DNA of 64,000 nt. It comes from Branchiostoma floridae (taxonomy: Eukaryota > Chordata > Leptocardii > Amphioxiformes > Branchiostomatidae). The notes under the pieces are model-generated. The model worked only from the letters and a program-made list of their open reading frames with translations. It had not been told where the DNA came from and searched no databases. The position numbers and the translations under genes are program-made. Numbering within the stretch: position 1 is the first letter of the stretch; the number at the start of each line of letters is the position of its first letter. This document shows positions 6,995 through 62,638 of the stretch, piece by piece. The stretch covers positions 15,117,514 to 15,181,513 of the forward strand of contig NC_049981.1 of the NCBI RefSeq assembly GCF_000003815.2, given 5' to 3'.

Positions 6995-9651
6995 TCATTG
7001 GTCCTTTTTCGTGTTTCCCGTCAGTTGATCCCAGTCTAGCCAATAACGTTCCTTCATACGGATGGTGTAGGCCTGTAGGTTGGGGCAGTCCTCGGTAACA
7101 ATCCTGTACATGTAGGTGCCCGGCATGGTCCACAGGATTTGTGCCAAGAAACCAAAGACGGCGGCGTCGGCTTCGGTTGGTTCGTCTCCCATAAGATACA
7201 GCTTGGAACCTATAGACGATTTGTAGAAAACATAACATTCATATCACTAACATCGTATCAACAAGGTGACCGTTGAAACACATCATTGACGGACCACAAC
7301 TAAACAGGCAATGGCTGCACGCAAAAGTTAGGTGTGATGGGTCGTTCGGTGTAATATAACCAGCTGCTGCCGCGCCGCGCGCCTGTGAAGCTGGTGTGTT
7401 ACGCCGAACGGCGGTTATACCGGCTATACAGATACAGATACATATGCACCTGGGCAACTGGTCACCTGACTGTCCCGAGTTAGCACCAAACGACAGCTGC
7501 TTTAGACCCTTGCAATTTAGCACGACCAAATGATCACTGGGGGACGGTACAACATGGGAAAATAAGTATGTGTCGATGCGAGTATTGAAAGGTCGGGGCT
7601 TACAAACATATTTTTATCGGGAGGCAATGTGATATGTTGATATGAGGGATTAGGATCTTACCCAGGAAGTCTGAGAGAGCTCTGACATCTTTCTCAACAA
7701 TGGCTTCCAGCTCAGCGTCGGAGTGACGACCGATGCCGTGGGCCCACATGTTCTTTTTAATGGTCTTTATTGCAGGCTTCAGGTAGAAGAAAAAGATGAA
7801 CCAGGATACCTCCCACAGCTCCTGTATCTTATCCTGATTATCAATCATCTTACACTTTGCGCCTCCCCTGTATACGAGTAAGAAAAACATGGACAGAAGC
7901 ATCAAACGTTAATAACGTTCTACGCAAAGACTTATGCATTATGCTGCCACCAATCAATATCCATAGACATTGCTTTGGCTTTGCAAACTTGGACATTTTG
8001 AAAACGGTTCGCCAATGAAGTATGGCCTAATATTGTTATGTGAGCAGGAATATACAATCTATCTTACGAGAATGAAGTGGGGTCTATACAAGCGGCATGC
8101 ACATATACAACCAGCATGTACGAATATCGAATAACTATGTCTATCTTTGGACGGTACCGGTGAACGATACCTACTTCTCATTACCTTTGACCCACTTCTG
8201 ACGTCACGTTTCCATAAAGGTCACGTGAGTGAATGTAGTAAGTCAGGTTTCCTAAACAAAACAGACACGTCAGCTCAACTTCGTCAATATATGTCTCCTG
8301 TGCCAAAAAGAAAGTTTTAATATACCCTTTTGAATAAACAAACAAAACAGACACGCGGACAAACCAATATGTGTTCTCCTCCAGCATCTTAACAAAGGCC
8401 CGGCTGACGGCCCGGTCAGCATCATGAAGTGACCGGTTGAGATCCACTCCCTTCTCCTTGTTCAGGAACTCAATGATAAGGTTGGAGTCGCCCATGGCTT
8501 GTCCATTGTACTCGATCCAAGGGAGTTTCCCCTGTTTTGTGAAGTGCAAGCAAAGAAATTAAGACGTTTTGATAAAGATTTCAACAAGATCAAGTCAGTA
8601 TCAAAACATGTAACACAACTGTAAATCAAAGGTTATGTATACTAGCATGCACCTTTGGTCCCATGGCCATCTCTGTAGAGGGCTCGTATGGAATATCAGC
8701 CATCCGCAGGTAGGTCTCAAGCTTCAGTCCAAACGGAGACAAACATGGAATCGCCCTGACTGGTGGTATCCCGTGGTAGTGCACTTTTCCTGGATAAGAT
8801 ACAAATACATATAGATAACGTTATATACATGCATATGATTTTAGATGAGTGGATTTCAAAAAAATAGTTTTGCATTTGCAAACTAGATTTCTTTAATCAG
8901 TGTCTCTGTTTGTACATGTATGTATGTCACAGAACATTTCCGAATAGTACAATGAGGAATTGATAGAACTTTCTTCCGTTAATCGTAGTATAACTTGTTC
9001 AGTTTCGCCCTTGAGGCGTTGCGAAAAGTAAACTCCTCGTGTCCCACATTGTAGGTAAGCTGCGCATGCTGTATGCAATGTGCATATGTTCGCGGCGTGA
9101 GAGGCTACCCCCCTTCTACAATGAAATTAAGGTTCCGTGACTTAATCAAGTTTCAGATAGTATGAATCATACCTTAACAAAATTATATAGACGTGACGCC
9201 ATTCGTGTATGTGACAAGGCGGTTCCAGTAATTACAAAGATATTTCATGTCCTGGATTTCATGTTGTTTTCCAGAACAGCACGTATCTTCCTGCCTTCAA
9301 GTTTACTCGAGGGCATTGACATTAGCCAGCTGCTTTTAACATAAGGTCATGGCTACATACGCAGTACACATGTACAATTAAATGGTTCACGTTCTATAAG
9401 CGTATAAAAAATAACACTGGTCGGTTTTGAATTACCTTACCTGGCGTGAAGTCTGCCCTAACCTTGACTTTCTGGGTCCTTAATTCTTCACCAGAACATG
9501 CCCACAGTACCGCCACTGTAACGCAGACGGAGCAAGCACCGAGGACAACAAGGTCATCACAGGAAAGCTGGGCGGGGTCCGTCAACAACTGCTCAAATGT
9601 CTGAAACAAGGTTCCAACTGCTTCCCAGAGACTTTGAACAAATCCGGACAT
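6995..9651 (-). CDS. FAXC: Failed axon connections homolog (FAXC), metaxin/GST-like protein
   Basis: Five coding exons at 9441-9651, 8653-8789, 8365-8531, 7662-7867 and 6995-7209 join with matching phases into a 311-residue protein. All junctions are GT-AG. Residues about 34-53 form a hydrophobic anchor. Next comes the N-terminal thioredoxin/GST-like half (PCLSPFGLKLETYLRMADIPY, KLPWIEYNGQAMGDSNLIIEFL), then the GST C-terminal half (HGIGRHSDAELEAIVEKDVRAL, LYLMGDEPTEADAAVFGFLAQI). Vertebrate FAXC and Drosophila failed axon connections share these motifs; the fly gene acts in axonal development with Abl. No GST activity is implied. The protein ends in KKDQ, without the longer acidic tail I recall for human FAXC. 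Intron 4 (7210-7661) carries a small GC-rich repeat with inverted GTAATATAACCAGC/GCTGGTGTGTTAC ends. Confidence 0.88.
7339..7421. repeat. Small GC-rich inverted-repeat element in FAXC intron 4
   Basis: Flanking words CGTTCGGTGTAATATAACCAGC and GCTGGTGTGTTACGCCGAACG are inverted repeats with minor mismatches around a GCCGCGCCGCGC centre, about 83 bp in all. The related phrase GCGCCTGCAATGCTGGTGTGTTACAC occurs at about 9755-9780, just upstream of FAXC. It looks like a MITE family fragment. Confidence 0.5.
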
Positions 9652-15382: not shown

Positions 15383-23016
<7,634 letters not shown>

Positions 23017-37435: not shown

Positions 37436-40400
37436 ATGGTAAAGGAAATGAAGTACTACGACATCCTTGGTGTCAAACCAAGTGCCACGCCAGCAGAACT
37501 TAAGAAGGCGTACAGGAAACTCGCAATGAAGTATCATCCTGACAAGAACCCAGATGCAGGGGACAAGGTAACTCACTGGAAATCTTGAATGTTTTTATTT
37601 TCTCAGTCAGTGACATCCCTACCGCAAGTCTATTTATATACGTTTCTAGTGTGCCTATTACTACAATAGTCTGCAATGTAGTACTGAATTGTTCAGATAC
37701 CAATTTTTAGTATTATGAAAAACTTATTTTTGTATTATTTGATTTACAAATAAGAATAATCTTCATGGTTTCTCGTTTGATGTATTTGATCTTTTATATT
37801 CCAGTTCAAAGAAATTTCCTTGGCATATGAAGTCCTGTCAGACGAGAAGAAGCGGAAAATTTACGACGAAGGCGGCGAGCAGGCCATCAAAGAAGGAGGC
37901 ACTAGTGGTGGGAACTTCCACTCTCCCATGGACTTGTTCGACATGTTCTTCGGAGGAGGACCACGGTTTGCATCGTTAGAGATTTTTTGTTATTATCTCG
38001 CGCCTGTCGAGTGTTCTGATTTTCACAGGAGTTTTGCAGTTTTGATGAACTGTAACGTGTCTGTGTTTCAGAGATAAATAAGAGGTCTAACCCAACTCTC
38101 ACAATTATAACACATACAAAAAAAGGCAGCACTTGTGTATTTGTTATCAAAACACAATAAAGGTGTACATATGAGCTGTTTAGCCATCTTCCTGCTGCCT
38201 AAACCTTTGACTAATAGAACTATGTTGCCAAAAGGCAACATCAGCAGGGAGAATGTTTAAGTGGCAAATCAATTTATATCCCTCCGAGTTCGGATCTGCA
38301 TGAAACCAGCAAATTCTTCATTTTGAAACTTTGAAAGCTTGACAGGTGTGGTGGTGCAGTAGTGGTATGTAAGGTGTTTCTAGGTTTGTTACTTTGAGTC
38401 AAGTTTCTGTGTTGCAGTATTTGTCTGATATTACTTCTTTCTTTTTTTTTCTTTAGTATTTCATGTTTTTATGTTTAACTTTATGGTTTCTGATTCGTTT
38501 GCCAAATTGTTAGCATCTAATGCATGTACTAAATTGAAACTTAAGAACAATGAATGTTGTTATTATTTATTCTTTATTACAGGCCCATAGCATGAGCAGA
38601 CTGAACAATCATAAAACATATGTTAAAGCATTTTTTCTCTATTACAAAAGGCGAACTTCCACTCGCGAACGGCGCGGGAAGAACGTGGTGCACCAGCTGT
38701 CTGTATCGTTGGAGGAGCTGTATAACGGTGCCACCAGGAAACTCGCTCTCCAGAAAAACGTTATCTGTGAGAAGTGTGAAGGTATGTATAACTTGACATC
38801 AGACAGCCTGTCACTTAGATTTATAAAAATCTTACTTTCCTTCATTCTCACAAGGCATTTTTACAAATTCTAGAAGGGCATTTTGTCATAAAACATTTTA
38901 ACGTTTAAAACAAAAATGTCACTGAGAAGTGTGAAGTTATGTGTTACATTATGTGGCATAATCGCATGTCTCTCAGACACACATAGACATATGCAAATCT
39001 GTGTGTACTTCATGTACAGTCAAACCTGCCTATAGCGGCCACTCAATGGATTGGTCAAAATTTGAGACTTTATTTGAAAATCCAATACTTGATGCAGGGT
39101 TACTGGTATTTTATGATGCTTGTTTATCCATATATCACATATACGTAGTTAGATTTCGAACATCATGTTTTTAACCACAATCTAATAAGTTTCTTTGCAT
39201 CACTGCTGTTAGATTTGCCTTTTTTGTTGCTGTTGAGATTTTTCAAGCACTAACAGCATTCAACAACACGTAGGTCGCGGAGGAAAGAAGGGCGCGGTGG
39301 AGAGCTGTCCGAACTGTCGCGGCACCGGTATGCAGGTTCGTATCCAGCAGCTGGGTCCCGGCATGGTCCAGCAGATCCAGTCCATGTGTAACGAGTGTCA
39401 GGGTCAGGGGGAACGCATCAACCCTCGCGACCGCTGCAAGACCTGTAACGGCAGGAAGATTGTGCGAGAGCGCAAGATCTTGGAGGTGCACATTGACAAA
39501 GGTGAGTCTAGACTTTCCAAACAAAGATTACTCATTCTTTTGTGTGTGTTATTCATTTCTTGAGAGACAGGACATTTTTGGCTGTTTAGCTACAAAAATC
39601 GGAAAACCTTCCTTCATCTTTTTTTATTATTACGTATTAATTGGGATTGGTTTCGTAAGAAAAAATGAAAAGAAAAAAAGGTAAAAGAAAAAAGTTTTTT
39701 TAAAGATTGTATTTTTTTGTAAAAAAATGAGAAATATAAGAGCGCATTTTTAATTACATGTATTAGCCTTTTTGATAGAGCTTCCATTATGTTCTCTCTG
39801 ATGGACTAACTTAAATGTTTTGTGTAGTTTCTTTGCAAGTCACTAGGGGGCTCTCATAACCCAATGTTTCCTCAGGAATGAAGGATGGACAAAAGATCAC
39901 GTTCCATGGAGAAGGTGACCAGGAACCAGGCTTGGAACCAGGTGACATCATCATCGTTCTGGACGAGAAGGAACATCCCGTGTACCACCGTAACCATGGC
40001 GACCTGCTCATGAAGCTGGAGATTGAGCTAGTGGAGGCGCTGTGCGGATTCCAGCGACCAATCAAAACACTGGATAACAGGACACTACTGATCACATCTC
40101 ATCCTGGTGAATTTGACTTATATCTGTTTTTACTTAGTTTTTTCTACAAAAAAAGACTACATGTTTGCATTAAGACTACATGTTTGCATTATTTTTTATC
40201 AATAGATGTAACAATGGAAGATAGAACACAATTTTTGTGATCAGTTTGCAGCAAGACGTCACAACAAATACTGCAAACTTTTTAAAAAGTGTGAAAATTT
40301 CTAAATTTACAGAATATACGTGTTGGTATTCCCACAGGAGAGGTCATCAAGTACGGAGACGTGAAGTGTATCATGAACGAAGGAATGCCGATGTACCGCA

Positions 40401-46610: not shown

Positions 46611-49115
46611 TTATAAGGTTGCTCTTGGTTGCCCCGGGTTACGGTAAGTTCTAAACAAGATCCTCGTCGTGGGGTAGACTCTCCGGTCCTTCACAGTTTT
46701 CCCAGGAGGCTGCACGGCGAACATCCCCACCCGTTGATTCCGTCTCAGTTGTACGTCAATCTTCTCCGCGCGCTCTCTGTACTGTCTGATCTTAGCGTTC
46801 ACGTCCACGGGCGAACCCATGAACGAGTCAATGACGTCAGAGCTTTCCTCAGTGTCGTCTGAGAAATCGTCGTCAGTTTTGCGGGAATTTTTTGTTCTCC
46901 TTCCCGTAGGAAATACAGGTTTGTCACCGGGCACACTGATTCCGTTGTAGTGAGACTTTTTGTGCCTTAAAGAGTTACCAAAATGTCCGGGGGATTGGTT
47001 AGTGATGTTCGGCGGATAGGACATTGGGAACGAGTTTCCATGCGTTGTCATGACGACATCTGGACGATTCTTACCGTCCATGCCCTTCACGCCGCTGACA
47101 TGGGCAGCGTTTTCTGACAGGAACTTTTCCCACTCAGATTTGTTGACTAACCTCTTTTTGTAGGAAAGATCTGTTTTCATGTCGGAGTGTTGAACCCCGC
47201 TACCAGCAAACTGTTCTTCTCGTCTTCGATGACTTTGAGAAAATGATGGTCCATATGTGCTATTTTCAGGTTCATACGACTTACCATAAGAAGTTTGATG
47301 GGCTTCATTACCTATAACGTCAATTGAGTTTGTCACATGATCATCACGTGATTTGTGCTTGTTCCCAAGTCTCTTTCTGTCATCTCTTTCATGTCTGTCG
47401 TCCGCACTTTCATGAAGTTCGCTTCGGAAATCGAGCGTCGGTGGCTTAGTCAAACTCTGTTTGGATATCAGGCTAACCTTGTTCTTGTCATCTGTTAATG
47501 TTATTTGGGGTAGACCATGGTCGTCATCCGTACGGTTATGTGTTTTAGTTTTCCTGCGCTGTTCACTGTGGTGCTGTTGGTCTCTGTCTGATTCCGTGGC
47601 CGAACTGCTGTCTTGTGCAACTTGGCTTGTTCTCTGTTTTTCGGAATGGCTTACTTGCTTAGCTTTACGGTCATTTTTGTTGCCACCGCCTTTGTCGTAT
47701 TCTGTTTGTCTTTCGTAGCCTTCAGTAACTTCACTGTCAGTGTATTTGTCGCCTTTACCCTTGTCTCTTTTCCCTCTGTCTTGCCCTTTCCTCCTTGAAC
47801 TCTCTTCACTCTCCTCCAACTCCGAATCTGACGTCACTAGAGCTTCGCCCCCCTTCCCCTCTCGCCGTCTTGTTTTCCCCGCCGCCTCCTTTCTTCTCCC
47901 CACTTGACGGTCTCCATCATTGTTTGCTCCACTGTCGCTCGTTTCCCCATTATCCACAATTAACCTTCCATTCGTCTCTCTTTTGGTTCTGCGCGCCTGA
48001 CGGTCTGACAGGTCCTCGTCTTGACCCCTAACCTTTCGGTCGCCCCCTTTGGTGGGCCTGTCGCCATCTGTCCCATCATTCTTTTCTCTGAAAGCTCCTT
48101 TATTTTCTCGCTCCTTTGTTCTTTCCGTCTTGGCCTCTGACTGACCCTTACGAGTATTGTTTGTGCTTTGTTTGGACTTTTTCTCACCGATATTTTGACG
48201 ATTGGACTCACCTTCGTTTTCTGTGTCCTCAAAGTCGTCATCCGAATAAGAATCGAACCCGTCGTCTTGATGTTTTGCTGTGCGTTTAGATCTGTTTTTC
48301 CTTGCTTCTCGCCTTCTCTCATTTTCTTCACGAGTTCTTGGTCTGTTTTGTTTCTTTACATGGTCTCCGGGACGTGCAGCTTGCTTTCTCTCATTTTCTT
48401 CCCGACTTCTCGGTCTATTTTGACGGTTTGCGTCTCTTTGTGCCTTTGCACTGTGTTTTCTTGCTTTCTTCTTTGACGACGTCGGTCTTTTTACTTCATC
48501 CTTTGACTGTCTTCTGTCTTTCTTGTTTTCTTTCGTTGGTTTTGTCGACGCGTTTTTACTAGCTCCCTTTGGTACCTGTCTGTCAACCCTCTTTCTTTGT
48601 TCCACCTTTTGCAATTTACTGTCCCGTTTCAAGTTTGGTACCCTCGATTCGTCGTCTGTTTCAAAGTCTAGTTCGTCATCTTCTGTCGCATAACTGTAAA
48701 ACATTGCATTTTCTTCCACCCTTTCCCCTCTTTCTTTTTTGCTTTTCTTGCCTTTGCTGGGTTCTGCTTCTTTTAAAACGACCAACTCCTTTTGCAGCTT
48801 TTTATTTTGCTCTCTCAGTGCTTTAAGTTCCTGTCTTAGCTTCTGTTCTAGTTTGCTCCTTCCTTTAACGGTGTCTTTCAAATCGCCCTTAAGTCTTTTT
48901 ACCGACTTACCAAGAACCAAATTTTCCGCGTCCTTCTGTTTCTGTTTATCCTTGAGTTCCCGTACTCTCTTGTCCTTCTTATAGGCTATGAGGTGGCTCA
49001 AGTTTTTGGCCGCTTCCTCCCTCTTTAAGGCCAAGTCCCTTTCCTTTTTGAACTTCTTCCAGGCCTCCTCGTCCGCTTTGCGCGGCTGTTGCGCGTTGGC
49101 GCGCTGGTTTAACAT
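46611..49115 (-). CDS. Intronless ORF for an 834-residue highly charged protein, function unknown
   Basis: One uninterrupted frame of 834 codons with an in-frame TGA 12 bases before the ATG, so the start is well defined. I do not recognise the protein. Residues about 45-120 are a strongly predicted coiled coil (LKDKQKQKDAENLVLGKSVK, KLRQELKALREQNKKLQKEL). An acidic patch (about 142-157, EDDELDFETDDE) and a long Lys/Arg/Glu/Ser/Asp-rich, probably disordered region follow. The latter contains a repeated RPR(S/T)REENER unit at about 235-244 and 258-267 and several SD/ED-rich acidic clusters. The end is basic and less repetitive (NAKIRQYRERAEKIDVQL, then VYPTTRILFRTY). The 5' leader appears spliced: a T-rich tract and CAG lie at about 49345-49360, and two short upstream ORFs precede the start. 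Nuclear, cytoskeletal or matrix roles are all possible. Confidence 0.7.
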   Translation of the reverse strand: MLNQRANAQQPRKADEEAWKKFKKERDLALKREEAAKNLSHLIAYKKDKRVRELKDKQKQKDAENLVLGKSVKRLKGDLKDTVKGRSKLEQKLRQELKALREQNKKLQKELVVLKEAEPSKGKKSKKERGERVEENAMFYSYATEDDELDFETDDESRVPNLKRDSKLQKVEQRKRVDRQVPKGASKNASTKPTKENKKDRRQSKDEVKRPTSSKKKARKHSAKAQRDANRQNRPRSREENERKQAARPGDHVKKQNRPRTREENERRREARKNRSKRTAKHQDDGFDSYSDDDFEDTENEGESNRQNIGEKKSKQSTNNTRKGQSEAKTERTKERENKGAFREKNDGTDGDRPTKGGDRKVRGQDEDLSDRQARRTKRETNGRLIVDNGETSDSGANNDGDRQVGRRKEAAGKTRRREGKGGEALVTSDSELEESEESSRRKGQDRGKRDKGKGDKYTDSEVTEGYERQTEYDKGGGNKNDRKAKQVSHSEKQRTSQVAQDSSSATESDRDQQHHSEQRRKTKTHNRTDDDHGLPQITLTDDKNKVSLISKQSLTKPPTLDFRSELHESADDRHERDDRKRLGNKHKSRDDHVTNSIDVIGNEAHQTSYGKSYEPENSTYGPSFSQSHRRREEQFAGSGVQHSDMKTDLSYKKRLVNKSEWEKFLSENAAHVSGVKGMDGKNRPDVVMTTHGNSFPMSYPPNITNQSPGHFGNSLRHKKSHYNGISVPGDKPVFPTGRRTKNSRKTDDDFSDDTEESSDVIDSFMGSPVDVNAKIRQYRERAEKIDVQLRRNQRVGMFAVQPPGKTVKDRRVYPTTRILFRTYRNPGQPRATL

Positions 49116-49349
49116 TGTTGTCGTTCACTGAAGTGAGATGTTCAACTTTTCAGTTTCCATTTTTACCCTTGTGTCCTCTGACTCGACGTTCTTGCTCACT
49201 TCGTGTCACTGTATGTCTGTTTACCCTCCATGGTCACTTTTCTTCAGGTGCCCTGAACCTGTGTGCTGGGTGGCCTTGGGGTTTGAATTCGACCTTCGTA
49301 GACACATTTGTTCAACTAAAGCCAACCCTTGCTATTTTTGTCTCCTGAA

Positions 49350-53500: not shown

Positions 53501-55740
53501 CCATGAATGGGGCAAACATACCAGTGACCCATCAAAGGTAGAATAGTCGCTAGCATTTTGGCCAATGCTCTTCAAAAGGAGTAGATTTCTTCTTGCTCCT
53601 GCCAAAAGGTATTCAGTACCATTGGACCGGTAAGCCATAGCATTGTAACATTGTGCGTTTTTCACTCTTGCACCTAATGGCGGTTTCTTTTTCCCCTGAT
53701 CGTGCATGCCTTCAATTGAAGCAGGGAACCGTGGTGTATACGGTTGAAAATTTATCTCAACATGATAGGGGTCGCTTGGTCAATTTTAAACATCGGAATG
53801 TTATATAGTTACCTCAGCCTAGGAGGTTCTGTTTTCGGTACCGTTTGTTGATAGGTAGGTTTATTTGTGGACAGCAAAGTTATGGATGGCTCTCTATGGT
53901 AATTGTATGTGAGAAGGTGTCGGTAAAATGAATTAAAGACAAATTCGACCATGGGCCCCAGGCGACACCTTATGGTACTGCAGGTTTTGGTGTCGTTACA
54001 AAGTTTTATGGCCTGTAAATTAAAAGTACGATAATAATACTGTAAAAGCGATGATTTGTCACTTAATCATTTGGTGATGTAATTTATATTCATGATGTGA
54101 TTTGTCTTGTTACAAGATTCAGCTACTGGGAGGGAGAGAGCCAAACGGCACGGCAAGACAAACAATCCAAGGTGCATTGACACTGCCCATTCCCAAGCAC
54201 TTTTATGAGAGGACTTTCCCAAACAACGCACACAAAACTGTGCAAATATCGTGTTTGAAACACCTGCAAATGAGAACAACTCGTTTTGTGTGGAGGTTTT
54301 GTTTGGCAAGGCGATACTAGCCGACCGTGTCGGGGTGTAGTCGTACTTAATGCGCGACAAGTGTCGTGGGGTTAGGCTTTCAACCCGGGCTTAAAAAGGG
54401 CAGATCCGACAATCGCCCCTCCCCCAACACACACAACATGTATACAACAATCCGGTTAAAAACAACATAGCGTGTTGAGGTGTTTGTATCACGTAGTGAT
54501 TTGATAAGATATGGACGTTTTACAAATACGATAACCTAGTTAAGTATTTGATTAGCTCGACATTGTGTTAGCGTTGTCAATAACCATTCTGGCGTCTAAA
54601 TTTGTCAATTTTGTTGATTCTAAACGGTATGGACAACAAAGAACACTATGCTGTCTATTTTCTATATATAGCAACGTGAGTGAAAGGTAATTCTTGCTTT
54701 ATTGCTTTTGAGGGAATTAATGATACATTAAAAGTGCTTAAGCAGAGGTTTATAAAGCGGCATGTCTTTGATTGTCACGTCAATCGATAACCTTTAATCT
54801 TAAGGTCGTGTGAAAAAGTATAAGTGTAGAATTTATCGACTACCTAGATAGGTAGGCCAAGGTATGCACATAGTTATTATCTTTTCACATGGCATTGCGT
54901 GCTAGCATGTACTAAGATGTACTTTAATCTAGACTGGTATCCATTCTATTCTACTAGCTTAGGTTAGCTCCTCTGATCACTTCCCTGTCAAAAAGTCCTA
55001 AGCCCGGTTGGGAAGCGAACCAGTGGATATACAAAGTTGTGACCAGCTTTAGACATCAATTCATAGTTTGGGTTCGGTAGCTGTTGAACAGTCACTGGTG
55101 AAAGGTACTACCTGAAACGTCTGACCGTTTACAAACTACCCAGTTGCTCTGATTATTGGAGAAACGGTTATCTTGTGTATCTTACAACCGGAATGTCTGA
55201 CCTGCGTCGACGTCTTGACCAGCTATTTTCGGCATGATTTTGCGAAAAATCCAACTGCAGAACATTAAAACTGCGTCAATGCATCTCGTCAGCTCAGCCT
55301 ACTAGTATTTATCTATCACATAATTTCAGTTCAAAATGTGTTGTTTTTCAGTCGAAAACCGTGGTAGCTATATACATTTACACGTTCTAACGGTTCTCCA
55401 TGGTATCACACTACTAGTACTACTGTCAGTCGGTCTATACAGACTATGACTCTATGCAAAGGAACTAGATGACAAAGGAGACTACAATGCTCATAAATGT
55501 GCAGTACAGAATACATAAACTTATAAAGTAACAACTTAGCGATTCTCAATGTAAAGTCCATTTCCTAACGTCTTCCCAATTTTTCTTCATTTTGTAACCA
55601 GAGGACAGATAACAAACTTATATGATTTGATGTGATAGAGAAGTTCTATTTCCAACTATCGCTTTTTCTGTGCTCAGTAAAATGCTTTTCTGGGCTAAGT
55701 AAATGTGATGAATAATCAAGTCTATGCCGTCAATAGACAT
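50566..55740. other. Gene-poor intergenic region
   Basis: About 5.2 kb with no exon I can support. It contains the degenerate triplicate at 51536 and a repeat-like phrase near 51887 (CACTACAGCCTATAGTGGCGG), related to one at 39020 in DNAJA1 intron 3 (CCTGCCTATAGCGGCCAC). Otherwise it holds only short open frames on both strands with no family similarity or splice support. Nothing else recognised. Confidence 0.4.
51536..51655 (+). repeat. Degenerate triplicated segment
   Basis: GTCTTTTCAGTAGTTGTCAATGC, GTCTTTAGAGCAGCTGTCAATGC and GTCTTTAGAGGAAGTGTCAATG begin at about 51536, 51571 and 51627, with GCGA(G)GAAT before the second and third. A short, irregularly spaced minisatellite. Confidence 0.55.
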
Positions 55741-58700
55741 TCAGTGACTCATCTTCCTTCCCTCCTGTGACAGCCAGTATGTTGTCATCTTCACTCCGTC
55801 CTGGAAACAACAAAGATATATTTGCAAGTAAGCACAAGCCATGCAATAGTATTTGCTTAACAAGTTCAACTGTGTTGGTATAAATATTCTGAAGCAAGAG
55901 TGAACCTTGATTTCTAACACAATAAATGACCTACCCAAATTTTGACTGTCCGACTGCAGTCTTTGTCAACCGAGGAACATGGACTCTATCATATTGGACA
56001 ACCCAAGAATCTCGGACAGAAAACCTAAAATTTTTGCGAGACCTAACAACTATCTTTCGGAGACGGGGGCGCCATAAACTTTCTGTAACTTATGATACAC
56101 TCTCAGAACCCACCGGGTCACTTGTTCCATCTGCATGACGTGGCGTCACGTCACAGAAGCGATTGATTGCTCATTCCTTGACTTGGCAATTTCAAAATTT
56201 GGCTAAATCCAATTTTTGTGTTGCAAACCTAGTTCAACCTTGCTCCATGAAATAGTATGTTGCAGAATGGCGTTGACAGGAACTATACGCATACCTTGAT
56301 CGTGACCTCGCCCCTTGGCTCCAGGTTAAATGCGCTCCCTAGCGACATGAGCAGCTCGCTTGTTGAGGAGGAAATCTGGATTCTGCTCGCTGAGCGGGGA
56401 TACAAATGTTTGACATTTTATATACAAAAAAACTATCGAAGTTCTTAGGAGCGGTCTAATCCTTCAGAAGTTGTTTATTAAATTTCTTCTCGTTTTCATG
56501 AATGATTATCTTTCTCTCTCTCTTTCTTACGTTCCGCCGTTTTCTCCAAGCTTTGAGCGATGTTGACGGTGTTGCCGAAGACGTAGTAGCGGGGCCGCTT
56601 CTCACCCACCACCCCAGCTACGCACGGTCCTGCAAAAACACAAGATGACTCAAAATGCATGTTAACAAAAGTGGATTGGAATTATCCATTTTGAATTCCA
56701 TTCTTATATCTTAAAACAAAAAAGCAATGTCAGTCGTACATTGACTACATCTTGTTGACTGAACGCTACATTTTCATGGTATCTCTACTATGCCAGTGAT
56801 CATGATTGGTTGACTGAAAGTAGTCAAAATTTCCGTTAACTTAAGTTCAGTCATGAGCAACAGCTCAAGCAAATGCATTTCACCTTTTAGAGACAATTTG
56901 TCCCAGCACAACATTTCAACAGACCAGACAGACAAGATGACCAGTCTACCTGTATGTATGCCGATACGGAACTTCATGGGGTAGGGGATGTGCATGGGGT
57001 GGAAGGCCCGGGCGGCTGACAGGAGGTGTAGCGCCGCGCACGAGATCTGCTCGGCGTGCTGGTCTCCGTTCTTTCTCGGTAAACCAGAGGCCACCATGAA
57101 GGAACCAGCTAGTGGAGAGTTAATATACACAGGTATAAGTTATAGCATGGAATATAAATCGGAACGACAGAATCCTAGAAAAATCAGCTATCATTTTTTA
57201 GGCAATATGTTATTTATATACTGACGATTATGGTTTATGCCTTGAGATGGCCCCTGGGACAGCGAATCATGCACGCTAACCTACGGAGCAAGCAAAACCC
57301 CACATGGTATGAAATTGGCAAGTCGGTAAAGTTAGTAGATGTGAAACTTAACACCTAAATATGACATTTAACAATAAAGTAGTTGATAGAGTTGACATGC
57401 AAACGACAAAATAAATAAATAATGAAGAGTTTCTCTAAGTAATTTTTCCAACATAGTATATGATAATAAAGGATATTTGGATAATGAAACGTCTTCAAAA
57501 TGGCATTTCGTCAACTCCAGAAGTTTGCATTTACCCATAGTCTCCATTTTGTACACGTCATAGCGAGTGAAGACGGCTTCAAAAGCCTGGTCCATCCGGT
57601 TGAGCAGGTCGATGACCTTGTGGGGAGACAGGGAGGCAGTGGCCTCTGTGAAACCCACCACGTCTGAGAACATGATGGTGGCCTGGGAAGGAAAGAGGAG
57701 TACAAATGAACGTATAACTGATGGCTTGTCGATGGATCACAATCGTTGAATTAATTTAAGAAACCTGAGCCGTGCGGTATATACCTTGCTGTCAGTGTTA
57801 AGCTATTTCACCTCATCATTGTTTCCTAACTTTTTTTTCGAAATGAAAGTTATAAGTGTTCTCGATAGATATTCGTATGATCGAACCTGACCAAAAGTCA
57901 TGGATGTCGATATAATGAGAGAACAATGCGTTATTTCGCATATGTATTGGTATTATTTGAGTAAATGATTTGATTGTAGCTCGCGCTTTATGATTTAACG
58001 CACCAAGTATTCTTGCTTTGCTGCCGAGCATGTCTAATGCAACTGACCTTGCGGTTGAACTACGCGTATAGAATGTTTAAGGTAACATTGTCTATGACCT
58101 AGAAATAACAATATGAAGATTCCAATTCATATGATTTTCTTACTTGGTCGAAGTACTCAGCCGGAAGCTTTTCTGCCTTCTTCATGGACTCCACAATGAT
58201 GGAGGGGAAGACGCTGTACAGGAGTTTGTCCGATTTCCTCTGCTCGTCTGCCAGCTTCGTCGTCACTTTCTCCAGGTTGGCTGCTACTGCTTGAGACTCA
58301 CTGGCCATTTTGTACACCCCAAGGACTATCACTGGACCTATACAGGCTACCACTATCAATACAGAGAACCCCGAACTCAGTCGGACATCGTTTTGCCGGA
58401 GGATGTCATCGATGATTTGAAGGACCTTCTCAGATAACCTCTCGTCTGTCTCCTCCAAAACATGGGTATATACATCCATGACTTCTAACCATTTTGCACC
58501 ATTCTCAGCAGAGGTGTTGGAGGCTTTGTTTTTCTTGATTTGGTTGCGGAGCCGGATAAGTTCTTTCTCGTATGAGGTGCCGAAAAACTCTTCCTCCAAG
58601 TCGTCTTCCACGGCGTGGCTGTAAACGACGGCGTTCTCGAGCTGGGAGCTGCCGACCGCCAGTGCCTCGTAATACCAGATAAGCTCCTCCGTGGAAAAGC

Positions 58701-61546
58701 CTCCTGGTCCTGAGAAAAAATAAGAATAGACAGTAACGTTATATAGTTCCTTTTATCATTGTACTTTACGCGTGACAGGGTATTCCCATCTATCTATAAA
58801 AGTGCTGGATTTCATATACATGCATATTAGTTCTCCATGATCCTGTCGTGAACAAATACTAACTATTCATTCTAAAACATGGAAGGCTTTTCAGGGCAAG
58901 GTTATCTAGATAACTGACAATGTTATTCATATTTTTATTTGATTGATGTTCAGTCTCATATACAACCCCGGTTAGATCTTTATAAGCACCTTTTTACTGA
59001 TTGTGACACAAAGAAATTTGTAGTTATAAACATATACACATATATATCCAGGCATACTGTTTCTTAGTGAAAGTTTTACACTCTCCTTACCGCTATGGTC
59101 AGCATTAAACATTATCTTTGATTCTATAGATTAATGACTGCATGCACGTAGGGACTTAAAACGGTTAGGTAAGTCAGATTATCCTCAGGGGCAGGTCATT
59201 CCCGGGCGGATTAAGTCTATAAAATGATGAACATAAATGCTGACAACGTGACATTTTCCTTCATCCTTCACCTTAAACCGATCCGCTGTGATTTGCCTGC
59301 GAAATGCGTGTGACCTAAGGTCTGAGATTCGCAGTTGAGCACATAATCTATGGCGTATAAGACTTTCATACACTTCCCCCGTGCCCAGCGAAGTGCTGAA
59401 TCACTCTGTCAAGCATTATCAACGAAACAATTTGGCACGAAAGTTGTCAACGCGGCAATCGGATTAACCATTGCACAGGGAAGCCTGATGAGACCGAGTT
59501 TGACTGGCACCTCCCCAACTCCACGGTGAATATTTCCCACTTTACATTTCATTAAGTGTGAAAATGAATAAGAGTCATTTACTATATACAGATACTTCGA
59601 ATTACTTTTTAGAGTAAACATAAAAAACATTTAGATTTGTTGTATGTGCGTAGCCATAGCCTCTAGTATTACCTTTGTTAAAGAAAGTCCAGCCCAGGTT
59701 CATCTCAAGGTTGGTGCTCTCAATACTGCCTAGCAGCATCTGGTAGGCCACGACAGTGGTCCACAGCTGAGATGTATCTGCACGACTCAGTACTGCCGAC
59801 ATGATGTGGATGAGCATTTTGTTGATGTCTGTGTAGAATTGTATCTCCTGTGGAAGGCAACAATCATACAGAATAAGAGACCAGTACTAGAGGCAGAATC
59901 TTTACTACTTGTTATGTTGTTGGATGCCTATCAGCGACGATACATGTTTGGGGTCTGTTAGTATTCTTTTATTGGCTTTTACGCATACATTACCAGTACT
60001 TTTGTCTGTTCCAAGTTAGCTGGCTGTGTGTCTGTTTGGTTTGGTACGCACGATGTGTGCGTGTTTGTGTGCACACGTGTGTACAAGTATACTAAGATAC
60101 TTTGTACCCCGTACAATTGTTGTGCAATAAAGTTATATATAAATACATCAAACGTACGCGTCCTCAACAATACAACGACTATTTGATAGTGGAAAGCAAC
60201 AGATAGGGTCCTAACCTCTTCAACTGTAGTCTCATTTAGTTTGAACCACACGTTGCTTCTGTGATGTGCCAGATGTGTCTTGAATTCCTCTGCAGACTTG
60301 AAATTGTCAGGATAGTGCTTATCATACGGTAGCCAACGACTCAAGCTTCCTATTGTGTTGTCTGTTTGCTCATGAATGCGAAGCAATCTACGGACATGAT
60401 AGAAAAAAAGAACGTTGAATAAGTGAACATAAATGAGTGAATCAAATCGTAACGTTCCCTGGCTGGTCATATCAACATTTCTTTGAGCAATATATGATGC
60501 TAGCCTTCATCAAAATCTTAATAACACTGACATTGAATATTGACATTAGGCCAAAACATCTCCATTTTCAAACTTGATCAATTTGTCATGTTCGATGCGC
60601 CCACCTATATGTAAAGCATCGGACTCATCTTTTTCAGTATTGGCAATAGCTTCGACACAATGATGCCTGTAAGTCTTGCTAAACTAGAACCCTTACATGG
60701 TGGGGCTATGTACATGTTTGTATTGTATACCGTCACTTACGTATATGGTATGTATACGAAGAGAACCGACTAATGGCGTTCCCTTGGAGAAACATCGGAG
60801 CATATCAGGAGAGTCGAAGTCAGGACCTCTAGGCTTTTCGCTAAACACACCCTACTCTTACGTTACGCGAATCCACACTTGTGTGAAGTACGTACCTTTG
60901 GTATACGTCCGTGTCTCCACCACTGCTGATGAACAAAGAGGTTGTGCCCCTCTCCAGAGCCAGATCATGGACGATATGACCAATCTCTGTGGAGAAGACT
61001 ATCTCGTTGCCGGTCTCCTGTCCTGAACTTTTAAGAGCGGTGGCCTGTTGAACATCATCGTCAAATTTAGTTTTAAGGTTAGATTCTTGAATTTTTCGTC
61101 TGTCTCGTGGTGAAATTGTTGATTACTTGCAATAGCACAGAGTGTAGTTTTCATGATAGAATCTTTATTTGTTTTTTATAATTGTAGTGGTATCTTATTG
61201 GGTCAGTAAGGTAGTGATTTTAAACATAGACATTTAATTACAACCAGGGAAGATCTCGGAGGGTATGGACTCGTAACAACACCGCGTGCATACATTTCAC
61301 TTTTGGTCTTAGCAATAACAACACCTTTAAGGCTGGCTCTGCTCTACTAGTAAAGTGAATAAAATGAAATGAAGAATACTACACTCCTACCTCTTTCAGG
61401 GTGAGGGCATTTTGCACCACCATACTGAAGATGGGAAGCAAGGCTAAGAACAGGAGAACGATCAGGCGTACGAACTGTTTTCCCTGAAGTTTTGGCGGGG
61501 AGCTGGCGTCACCATTCGGGCTGCGCGCTTTGAAGTAGAGCGACAT
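55741..61546 (-). CDS. NIT-domain transmembrane guanylyl cyclase-like receptor with altered active site
   Basis: Ten coding exons, 61391-61546, 60896-61044, 60216-60387, 59673-59847, 58144-58709, 57535-57682, 56950-57108, 56531-56629, 56295-56389 and 55741-55800, join in phase into 592 residues. Order: cytoplasmic tail and first membrane segment (about 25-43), an extracellular nitrate/nitrite-sensor-like (NIT) domain ([20 protein letters not shown], then [14 protein letters not shown]), and a second membrane segment (about 331-350). The signalling helix follows ([27 protein letters not shown]), then a class III cyclase domain (407-541), [13 protein letters not shown], and a tail ending [13 protein letters not shown]. 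Metal Asp413 (MFSDVVGFT), base-contact Glu453 (KMET) and Asn531 (TVN) are present. The second metal Asp is Gly457 (METMAGSF), the guanine-specifying Cys is Tyr524, and the catalytic Arg is Ser535. NIT receptor cyclases are known in some invertebrates; activity here is doubtful. Confidence 0.82.
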
Positions 61547-62638
61547 CCTTTGGAGTCAGCCCAGTCATATGCCGTATCTTCTAGAAGTGTAGCTGAGCAG
61601 TCTTCTTCTCGCCTTGGTAGGCTCTCTAAAGCAGCGGTCTCATTAGTCGCTCTGTCTGTAAGGTTCCGGCTTTGGCAGTGTCTCATGTGGCTGATTCGCC
61701 GGACGTTGACTCGACAGGTCTTCTTTCCAAACATCCCCCCAGCATCATTATATGAGATATAGTTGTTAAATATTGATTAACTAATGCGCACGTGACAGGA
61801 TGCATGAAATGGATTATTTTTTATGTGCATAAACTGATAAAGCAGCTGAGGCGATTATGGCTTTAAAATCAGTATAATCACCTTTTGATGGAGTAACTTA
61901 AAGCTTCTTATGGAATAGCTGACGCCAAAGATTCAAGAGTCACCTGATTGTCGTTTGCGAATTCTCAGTATGGGGCCTATGGGCACTTGACAATCTTAAC
62001 GAAATGTATGGGGCCTGCTGACAGAACGAGCCACACATATGATTATTATGTTCACGTCACCCTGATGATATTTTTGCAATATATAATATTTGCAATATTC
62101 TAAGATATCAGATAAGAGGGGTTCTTCACAGCTTTTGGAAAAATAATCAACCCATGTTTAGATTTAGATTTTAGCTTTTAAAATTTGAATAACTGCATGC
62201 GTTTAGTATGCCGGGGCTACTACACCACCCATCCTTGAGTACTAGTACTATTGGGGGTGGGGGCACAGGAGCTAACTAACCAGGATGACAGCCAAGCTTC
62301 CACCTTATATAGGGGTGTGAATTCTGATATAGCATTACGGAAGGTCATCCCCGACTCAGAGGTCGGCTAAAATTACACTCTTGTGCACGACCATCTCAAA
62401 TATGGCGGACGTGGGGAGGCCAAAGGCTATGATAACTGCGCCATGTATCAGGACTGCTTGAAATACTGGATACTACCAATGGTAAGACTTTGCTTGTTAA
62501 TCAAGAAATCGGTGTTACCGAGTTTTTTTTGTATGATGCATAGGCGTAGCTATGGGTCTCATTTTTATATGTAGTATCAGACATTAGACAATCACACAAT
62601 CTATGAAATTATATGTGTAGCTACCGACGCAGGTTTAA
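61547..62638. other. Upstream region between the cyclase-like gene and the right-hand gene
   Basis: Divergent interval. The stretch after 61547 should carry the leader and promoter of the cyclase-like gene. A candidate first, non-coding exon of the right-hand gene ends at CAATG/GTAAGA (62481/62482). It contains a 19-codon upstream ORF starting with ATGGCGGAC at 62402, so its translation would end before the main start. Confidence 0.35.

Follow-up and report, generated by a model that had tools for sequence, protein, structure and literature searches.

Receptor guanylyl cyclases that carry a NIT sensor domain (NIT-GCs) have been described in insects and sea urchins (PMC1592074) and in placozoans and many bilaterians, basal chordates among them (PMC7400543), and a cluster related to them in ctenophores (PMC10073611); two members, NIT-GC1 and NIT-GC2, have been reported in the ultraviolet-avoidance circuit of Platynereis (PMC10584369). 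Here we describe a NIT receptor gene in a 64,000-nucleotide window of the Branchiostoma floridae genome (assembly GCF_000003815.2, contig NC_049981.1, named C3 in the genome searches, 15,117,514-15,181,513; coordinates below are window positions). The gene lies on the minus strand from 61546 to 55741, and its cyclase domain has lost three active-site residues. Four NIT receptors were found in this genome, none with a complete site for making cyclic guanosine monophosphate (cGMP), yet the genes have been kept and duplicated. We put at about 0.5 the probability that the window gene is one of four paralogous NIT receptors with a retained, non-catalytic cyclase fold, members of an old pseudo-cyclase family. 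What can be read from sequence is an intact gene, the lost residues, a loss of the second metal Asp and the purine Cys common to the four, and a single receptor-cyclase clade.

Gene structure and domain layout

Ten exons were rebuilt into a product of 592 residues plus a stop codon, with GT-AG boundaries at all nine introns, in agreement with the earlier note on this DNA, which had taken the ten-exon frame to be intact and the gene to be no ordinary pseudogene. The exons and their contents are as follows.

Exon 1, 61391..61546, minus strand: start codon and first membrane helix, about residues 25-47 (gene model; helix read by eye)
Exon 2, 60896..61044, minus strand: start of the NIT domain, with helix-1 Glu83-Arg84, Arg codon at 60949-60951 (gene model, Pfam, NIT alignment)
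Exon 3, 60216..60387, minus strand: NIT domain (gene model, Pfam)
Exon 4, 59673..59847, minus strand: NIT domain, with Glu207-Met208 in place of the Glu-Arg pair of relatives and the Met codon at 59701-59703 (gene model, NIT alignment)
Exon 5, 58144..58709, minus strand: end of the NIT domain, second membrane helix (by eye), signalling helix (HNOBA tail, residues 350-392) and start of the cyclase domain
Exon 6, 57535..57682, minus strand: cyclase motif MFSDVVGFT with Asp413 (57662-57664), and Glu453 (57542-57544)
Exon 7, 56950..57108, minus strand: Gly457 (57104-57106) at the position of the second metal Asp, and RIGIHTG
Exon 8, 56531..56629, minus strand: Tyr524 (56583-56585) at the purine Cys, Asn531 (56562-56564), and Ser535 (56550-56552) at the transition-state Arg
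Exon 9, 56295..56389, minus strand: cyclase domain (gene model, Pfam)
Exon 10, 55741..55800, minus strand: C terminus and stop codon (gene model)

On the spliced protein, Pfam placed a NIT domain at residues 76-313 (E = 6.1e-18, 66.5 bits against a cut-off of 24.9) and a Guanylate_cyc domain at residues 401-584 (E = 9.2e-49, 165.9 bits), together with a signalling-helix-like segment at residues 350-392 matching the HNOBA tail (E = 1.6e-4; its 21.7 bits lie under the 23.4 cut-off). Hydrophobic stretches at about residues 25-47 and 330-352, read by eye, flank the NIT domain, and Pfam found neither a kinase-homology domain nor a heme domain in the protein. The coding sequence has a GC content at third codon positions (GC3) of 0.654 versus 0.375 for intron GC, and the best Protein Data Bank (PDB) match of the cyclase domain is NPR1. 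Judged by its sequence, the gene is clearly a member of the animal NIT-domain receptor cyclase family.

Active-site residues of the cyclase domain

Comparison with PDB by phmmer matched 46 sequences, and five alignments were examined (three NPR1 chains, GC-C and an alpha-1 chain of soluble guanylyl cyclase, sGC), in which the gaps were single residues, all outside the named motifs. In these alignments Asp413 (GAC) pairs with the first metal Asp, Glu453 (GAG) with the guanine Glu, and Asn531 (AAC) with the catalytic Asn (Thr in sGC alpha), while Tyr524 (TAC) stands opposite the Cys of YCLFG, Ser535 (AGC) opposite the Arg of ASR (Lys in sGC alpha), and Gly457 (GGT) opposite the Asp of GDAY. Beside it, Ala456 (GCT) takes the place of the GD Gly, in a codon that the exon 6/7 join splits into G and CT; Arg503 is retained. 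Codons and alignments to NPR1, GC-C and sGC alpha-1 bear out the substitutions at Gly457, Tyr524 and Ser535 named in the earlier note, and its three retained residues, Asp413, Glu453 and Asn531, are equally clear in both. Residue roles follow the study of CaRhGC (D457, D501, E497, C566, N573 and R577; PMC5967339). The metal pair (Asp413, with Gly457 second), the guanine-specifying pair (Glu453, with Tyr524 for Cys) and the transition-state pair (Asn531, with Ser535 for Arg) are each incomplete. A homodimer of the window cyclase domain is predicted to be inactive, and the lost metal Asp, purine Cys and transition-state Arg support the pseudo-cyclase NIT receptor that the earlier note had proposed.

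Catalysis by an altered site, using a different substrate or a single metal Asp, is highly improbable. It would draw on the retained Asp413, Glu453, Asn531 and Arg503, and some class III cyclases use unusual base-binding residues. Against it, metal B in the CaRhGC-derived structure is bound by both Asp residues (PMC5967339), and both are present in the aligned NPR1 and GC-C. Were some NIT members active instead, the standard class III metal mechanism would need revision.

Three further NIT receptors share the loss

A search of the assembly (513.4 Mb, 431 contigs) with PF08376 at E up to 10 gave six exon matches at four loci, among which the window gene's own match was weak (E = 0.2, under the single-exon cut-off). 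A second genome search, with the exon-5 protein of one paralogue, L013, as query (E up to 1), returned four matches in all and hit each of these loci once. Counts from these searches are lower bounds, and the genome holds at least four NIT loci.

Window gene: contig C3
L009: contig C4, 24.79 Mb
L013: contig C4, 9.9 Mb
L015: contig C14, 13.8 Mb

All four locus fragments have a NIT Pfam match, and all four an HNOBA tail at E up to 1. Many of the 101 genome matches to PF00211 (for example on C6, C10 and C17) lie outside the fetched regions, and neither genome-wide NIT search gave a NIT match there; inside the 64-kb window no tandem paralogue rose above chance (best E = 0.77). The check for a paralogue in the same genome, which the earlier note had suggested, was run and returned these three, all with Gly at the second metal Asp and the purine Cys lost. 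The catalytic columns read as follows, in the order window gene, L009, L013, L015.

Second metal Asp: Gly in all four (lost in 4 of 4), within Ala-Gly-Ser-Phe, Gly-Gly-Ala-Tyr, Gly-Gly-Ala-Tyr and Gly-Gly-Val-Tyr
Purine Cys: Tyr, His, Gln, Tyr (lost in 4 of 4)
Transition-state Arg: Ser, Arg, Gly, Lys (lost in 3 of 4)
First metal Asp: Asp, Asp, Asp, Ser (lost in 1 of 4)
Catalytic Asn: Asn, Asn, Thr, Asn (lost in 1 of 4)
Guanine Glu: Glu, Glu, Asp, Glu (lost in 1 of 4)

In the sisters we read exons 4-8 of L009, 1-9 of L013 and 3-9 of L015. Exons 4-8 have open frames, and a fitting GT-AG option was found at joins 4/5, 5/6, 6/7 and 7/8 in all three; at join 8/9 one was found in L013 and none in L015, and at join 3/4 none in L013 or L015. 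Neither exon 9 of L009 nor an exon 10 in any of the sisters was found, and the 5' part of L009 contains a run of N. GT-AG joins that yield GGAY or GGVY are available in the three sisters, and none of the 14 in-frame splice options scanned (4, 6 and 4 for the three) gave a Gly-Asp reading.

That an artefact of the gene model or the assembly conceals a normal active site is scarcely credible, even for a gene model built from genomic sequence. The exon 6/7 scan covered donors within 30 bases of the end of exon 6 and acceptors from 60 bases upstream to 30 downstream of the start of exon 7, and a single GT/AG pair was in frame and free of stops, the one used in the gene model. No second GD(A/C/S/V)(Y/F/W), PR(Y/F/W)C or (A/T)SR(M/L) motif occurs within the gene in the three sense frames of 55500-61800; the sole match resembling the metal Asp motif in that interval is GDVW at 61727-61738, which precedes the start codon. 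The earlier note had named a missed exon as a possible flaw, and no splice form tested restores GD, Cys or Arg; a missed or alternative exon doing so is ruled out within 55500-61800 by the splice and motif scans together. An assembly error at the metal Asp is likewise ruled out, as far as sequence can close that route, because the same Asp-to-Gly change recurs at three other loci.

Comparison with the other cyclases of the genome

The reference set consisted of 20 non-NIT loci with at least 90 columns covered and at least 45% identity to NPR1; L001 and L002 (below 45%), L005, L006 and L008 (inside longer fetched loci) and L029-L034 (NIT pieces) were left out. Reference residues were stitched from tblastn pieces, which makes single odd letters unsafe. 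All 19 references that cover the second metal Asp have Asp there. The purine Cys is conserved in 18 of 19, the odd letter in L020 being apparently due to faulty stitching where an exon ends, and the Asn is likewise conserved in 18 of 19. Of 37 columns conserved in at least 90% of the references, these three are catalytic.

At these 37 columns the four NIT proteins kept 3 and lost 9 catalytic cells, compared with 91 kept and 27 lost among the other cells (Fisher p = 0.0005). At fully conserved columns, where the second Asp is the one catalytic column, the counts were 0 kept and 4 lost versus 34 and 9 (p = 0.004), and at columns conserved in at least 80%, six of them catalytic, 11 and 13 versus 153 and 51 (p = 0.007). 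The first two or three residues of the sister cyclase segments, before VTVMF or ATIMF, are partly intronic in this comparison and in the tree described below; none is catalytic.

Two near-identical cyclase loci, L017 (4964-5472, on C4) and L018 (4482-4991, on C2), have FSNIVGF, with Asn for the first metal Asp, and their remaining catalytic residues read intact except the RIG-Arg equivalent in L018; they are possibly complementing subunits. A sparsely covered locus, L025 (4221-4370), has FSYLVGF, with Tyr at that position, and is possibly a degenerate subunit.

Clade, timing of the loss and coding constraint

A maximum-likelihood tree was built from 25 cyclase domains over 139 columns minus the seven catalytic ones, so that shared losses cannot drive the grouping of the NIT loci. 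The four form one clade (ultrafast bootstrap 100), as do the three sisters within it (96), and the clade sits among the NPR1-like receptor cyclases of the genome, with low support within that group. Because the four group together with the catalytic columns removed, the loss probably predates their duplication; the simplest history would have the second metal Asp and the purine Cys lost on the common stem and the other losses following.

A slow decay, in which catalysis was lost, constraint relaxed and the window copy went furthest, perhaps still expressed but with no lasting role, lies on the unlikely side. The window copy has the longest branch of the four, differs at 11 of 34 non-catalytic columns conserved in at least 90% of references (4-6 of 28 in the sisters), and is the copy with an extra loss of the helix-5 NIT Arg. 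Its intact ten-exon frame with nine of nine GT-AG introns speaks against decay, as do the sisters, which are open in exons 4-8 with GT-AG joins available and share the same shift. Neutral change of equal size would leave about ten stops: when the present coding sequence was carried to 37% residue change, roughly what a branch of 0.47 implies, stops arose in 40 of 40 simulated runs (mean 9.75); at 10% change 2 of 40 runs stayed stop-free. The window gene is free of stops and was therefore under coding constraint for most of that branch.

Pairing of subunits

In class III cyclases one subunit contributes both metal Asp residues to a site and its partner contributes the base residues (PMC12264004). 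The pairing table gave no complete canonical site from any pair of the four NIT members, nor from any NIT member with a canonical cyclase or with L003, an sGC-beta-like locus (best PDB match sGC beta-1). Two combinations come nearest, each one residue short: L009 paired with a canonical cyclase, and a NIT metal half that lacks only the second Asp joined to a canonical base half. L003 has Gly for the first Asp, Thr at the RIG Arg and an intact Glu, second Asp, Cys, Asn and Arg, so that its base half is complete, and L007, whose nearest match is weakly sGC alpha, reads Ser in the Asn column and Lys in the Arg column; the comparison therefore recovers the complementing pattern of sGC. The earlier note had also considered the window protein as the non-catalytic half of a heterodimer as in sGC, and here it did not hold: an sGC subunit keeps one half of the site, whereas the window protein keeps neither in full, having lost a metal residue and two base or transition-state residues. 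With losses in both halves, an sGC-like complementing role is ruled out, and the protein cannot give a full half to any partner.

It is also unlikely that the NIT pseudo-cyclase pairs with a catalytic cyclase as a dominant or tuning subunit that adjusts its activity. Precedent comes from NeoR/RGC1, where only one of the sites is catalytic and activity rose as much as ninefold when nucleotide binding at the other was disrupted (PMC12264004), and the NIT receptors keep cyclase-domain and signalling-helix-like sequences. No NIT pairing, with another NIT member, a canonical cyclase or L003, completes a canonical site, however, so a partner would need its own working homodimer or would have to tolerate the gap. 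Typical receptor cyclases, moreover, have a kinase-homology domain (PMC5225109), and as Pfam gave none here mixed dimers would be less natural.

The NIT sensor domain

The NIT domains of the four loci were aligned with those of three bacterial proteins, two from Thioclava and one an Aliarcobacter chemoreceptor, fetched from among 10 matches in plasmid records; no bacterial NIT relative was confirmed among genome contigs. A sequence search for a solved NIT structure gave none, a superoxide dismutase match at E = 0.1 being due to chance. The helix-1 Glu-Arg pair is kept in the window gene (Glu83-Arg84) and in L013, and L009 and L015 are not covered there. E175/R176 of NasR helix 5 have been predicted to take part in the nitrate pocket (PMC7496416) and two conserved NIT Args are thought to bind ligand (PMC7400543). 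We infer that the Glu-Arg pair seen here corresponds to that of NasR, itself outside the alignment. With Arg84 kept and the helix-5 Arg replaced by Met208, the conserved pocket pair, whose ligand role is taken from those papers, is incomplete in the window gene. The window copy appears altered at both its sensor and its output end, and its own ligand sensing is in doubt because Met208 replaces a conserved NIT Arg. That the protein signals the ligand state of its NIT domain without cGMP is possible.

Favoured reading and what weighs against it

If the window gene does belong to an old family of four pseudo-cyclase NIT receptors, metal-dependent cyclisation of guanosine triphosphate would have ended in their ancestor, when the second metal Asp and the purine Cys were lost. 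The proteins would still dimerise through the NIT bundle, the signalling helix and the cyclase fold, and ligand-driven helix movement would pass to a cyclase-like dimer that itself makes no cGMP and serves as a regulated scaffold, or as a partner that inhibits or allosterically controls a working cyclase. Output would then run through conformation and protein contacts. For the window copy, given the change of its NIT-pocket Arg to Met, a part as modulatory partner of the sister receptors would be more likely than one as a nitrate sensor of its own. A broader proposal, that the whole NIT family here lost cyclase chemistry before duplicating and was kept as non-enzymatic nitrogen-oxide receptors with the cyclase fold as a signalling scaffold, is more tentative, and we hold it at somewhat less than even odds.

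Several points weigh against the favoured reading. Several catalytic columns vary in the references too: the first metal Asp is kept in 15 of 19 (Gly in L003, Asn in L017 and L018, Tyr in L025), the Glu in 17 of 19 (the odd letters in L011 and L026 are exon-edge errors), the transition-state Arg in 17 of 19 and the RIG Arg in 16 of 20. Since several columns vary in this way, some through stitching errors and some of sGC type, loss at a single column is not unusual among the references. Because the NIT proteins are related to one another, the Fisher tests count cells that are not independent, and their p values serve as a guide only. The window branch, at 0.47, is about double those of its sisters (0.20-0.22), the helix-5 Arg is present in all three sisters and all three aligned bacterial NITs and is Met208 in the window gene alone, and this long branch and lone loss also fit relaxed constraint. 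L009, which keeps Glu, Asn and Arg and has His for Cys, might provide a non-NIT cyclase with a weak base half. The shared loss is known from one genome.

Other features of the window

Two tandem arrays lie at 19768-20930 (a 115-base unit repeated 10.2 times, 93% matches) and 17694-18460 (a 141-base unit repeated 5.4 times, 90% matches). A minus-strand open frame at 46611-49124 encodes 837 residues, highly charged by eye, with no Pfam match at E 0.01. Exons of neighbouring genes carry a DnaJ C-terminal domain (39860-40237, plus strand) and a metaxin-like GST_N_4/Tom37 match (8184-8558, minus strand).

Comparison with known systems

As in other animal NIT-GCs, the NIT domain stands between two membrane helices and is followed by a signalling helix and a class III cyclase of receptor (ANPR-type) placement (PMC7400543, PMC1592074, PMC10584369). 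Those proteins are presented as putative cyclases sensing nitric oxide, nitrite or nitrate, whereas all four NIT loci found in B. floridae have lost catalytic residues. In the open-access literature, judged mostly by titles and abstracts, we found neither a description of such loss in NIT cyclases nor a described counterpart of a pseudo-cyclase receptor class.

ODR-1 and DAF-11 of Caenorhabditis elegans are likewise receptor cyclases, described as obligate heterodimer partners that share a single catalytic site (PMC5225109); that pair completes one site, which no pair of the four NIT receptors can. The dimer of the chytrid rhodopsin cyclases NeoR and RGC1 offers a parallel in its non-catalytic, regulatory nucleotide site (PMC12264004), but in the NIT receptors several catalytic residues are lost. 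The bacterial NIT receptors (Thioclava, the Aliarcobacter chemoreceptor and the unaligned NasR) belong to the same sensor family, with helix-1 and helix-5 Glu-Arg pairs; they differ in their output domains, and among the aligned proteins Met for the helix-5 Arg occurs only in the window gene. Some sGC subunits also stand without part of the class III site: beta-1 has Gly for the first metal Asp, and chain 6pas_A, which we take to be Manduca sGC alpha-1, has Thr and Lys at the Asn and Arg. The sGC subunits complement each other, however; in the window protein residues are missing from each half, and Pfam shows no heme domain.

Membership of the NIT receptor family is of a kind already known; what is new is the predicted absence of the cyclase chemistry after which the family is named. 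The second metal Asp and the purine Cys provide a clear residue test for NIT receptors, and the finding asks whether those of other animals are enzymes at all. It suggests a class of pseudo-cyclase receptors comparable to the pseudokinase receptors.

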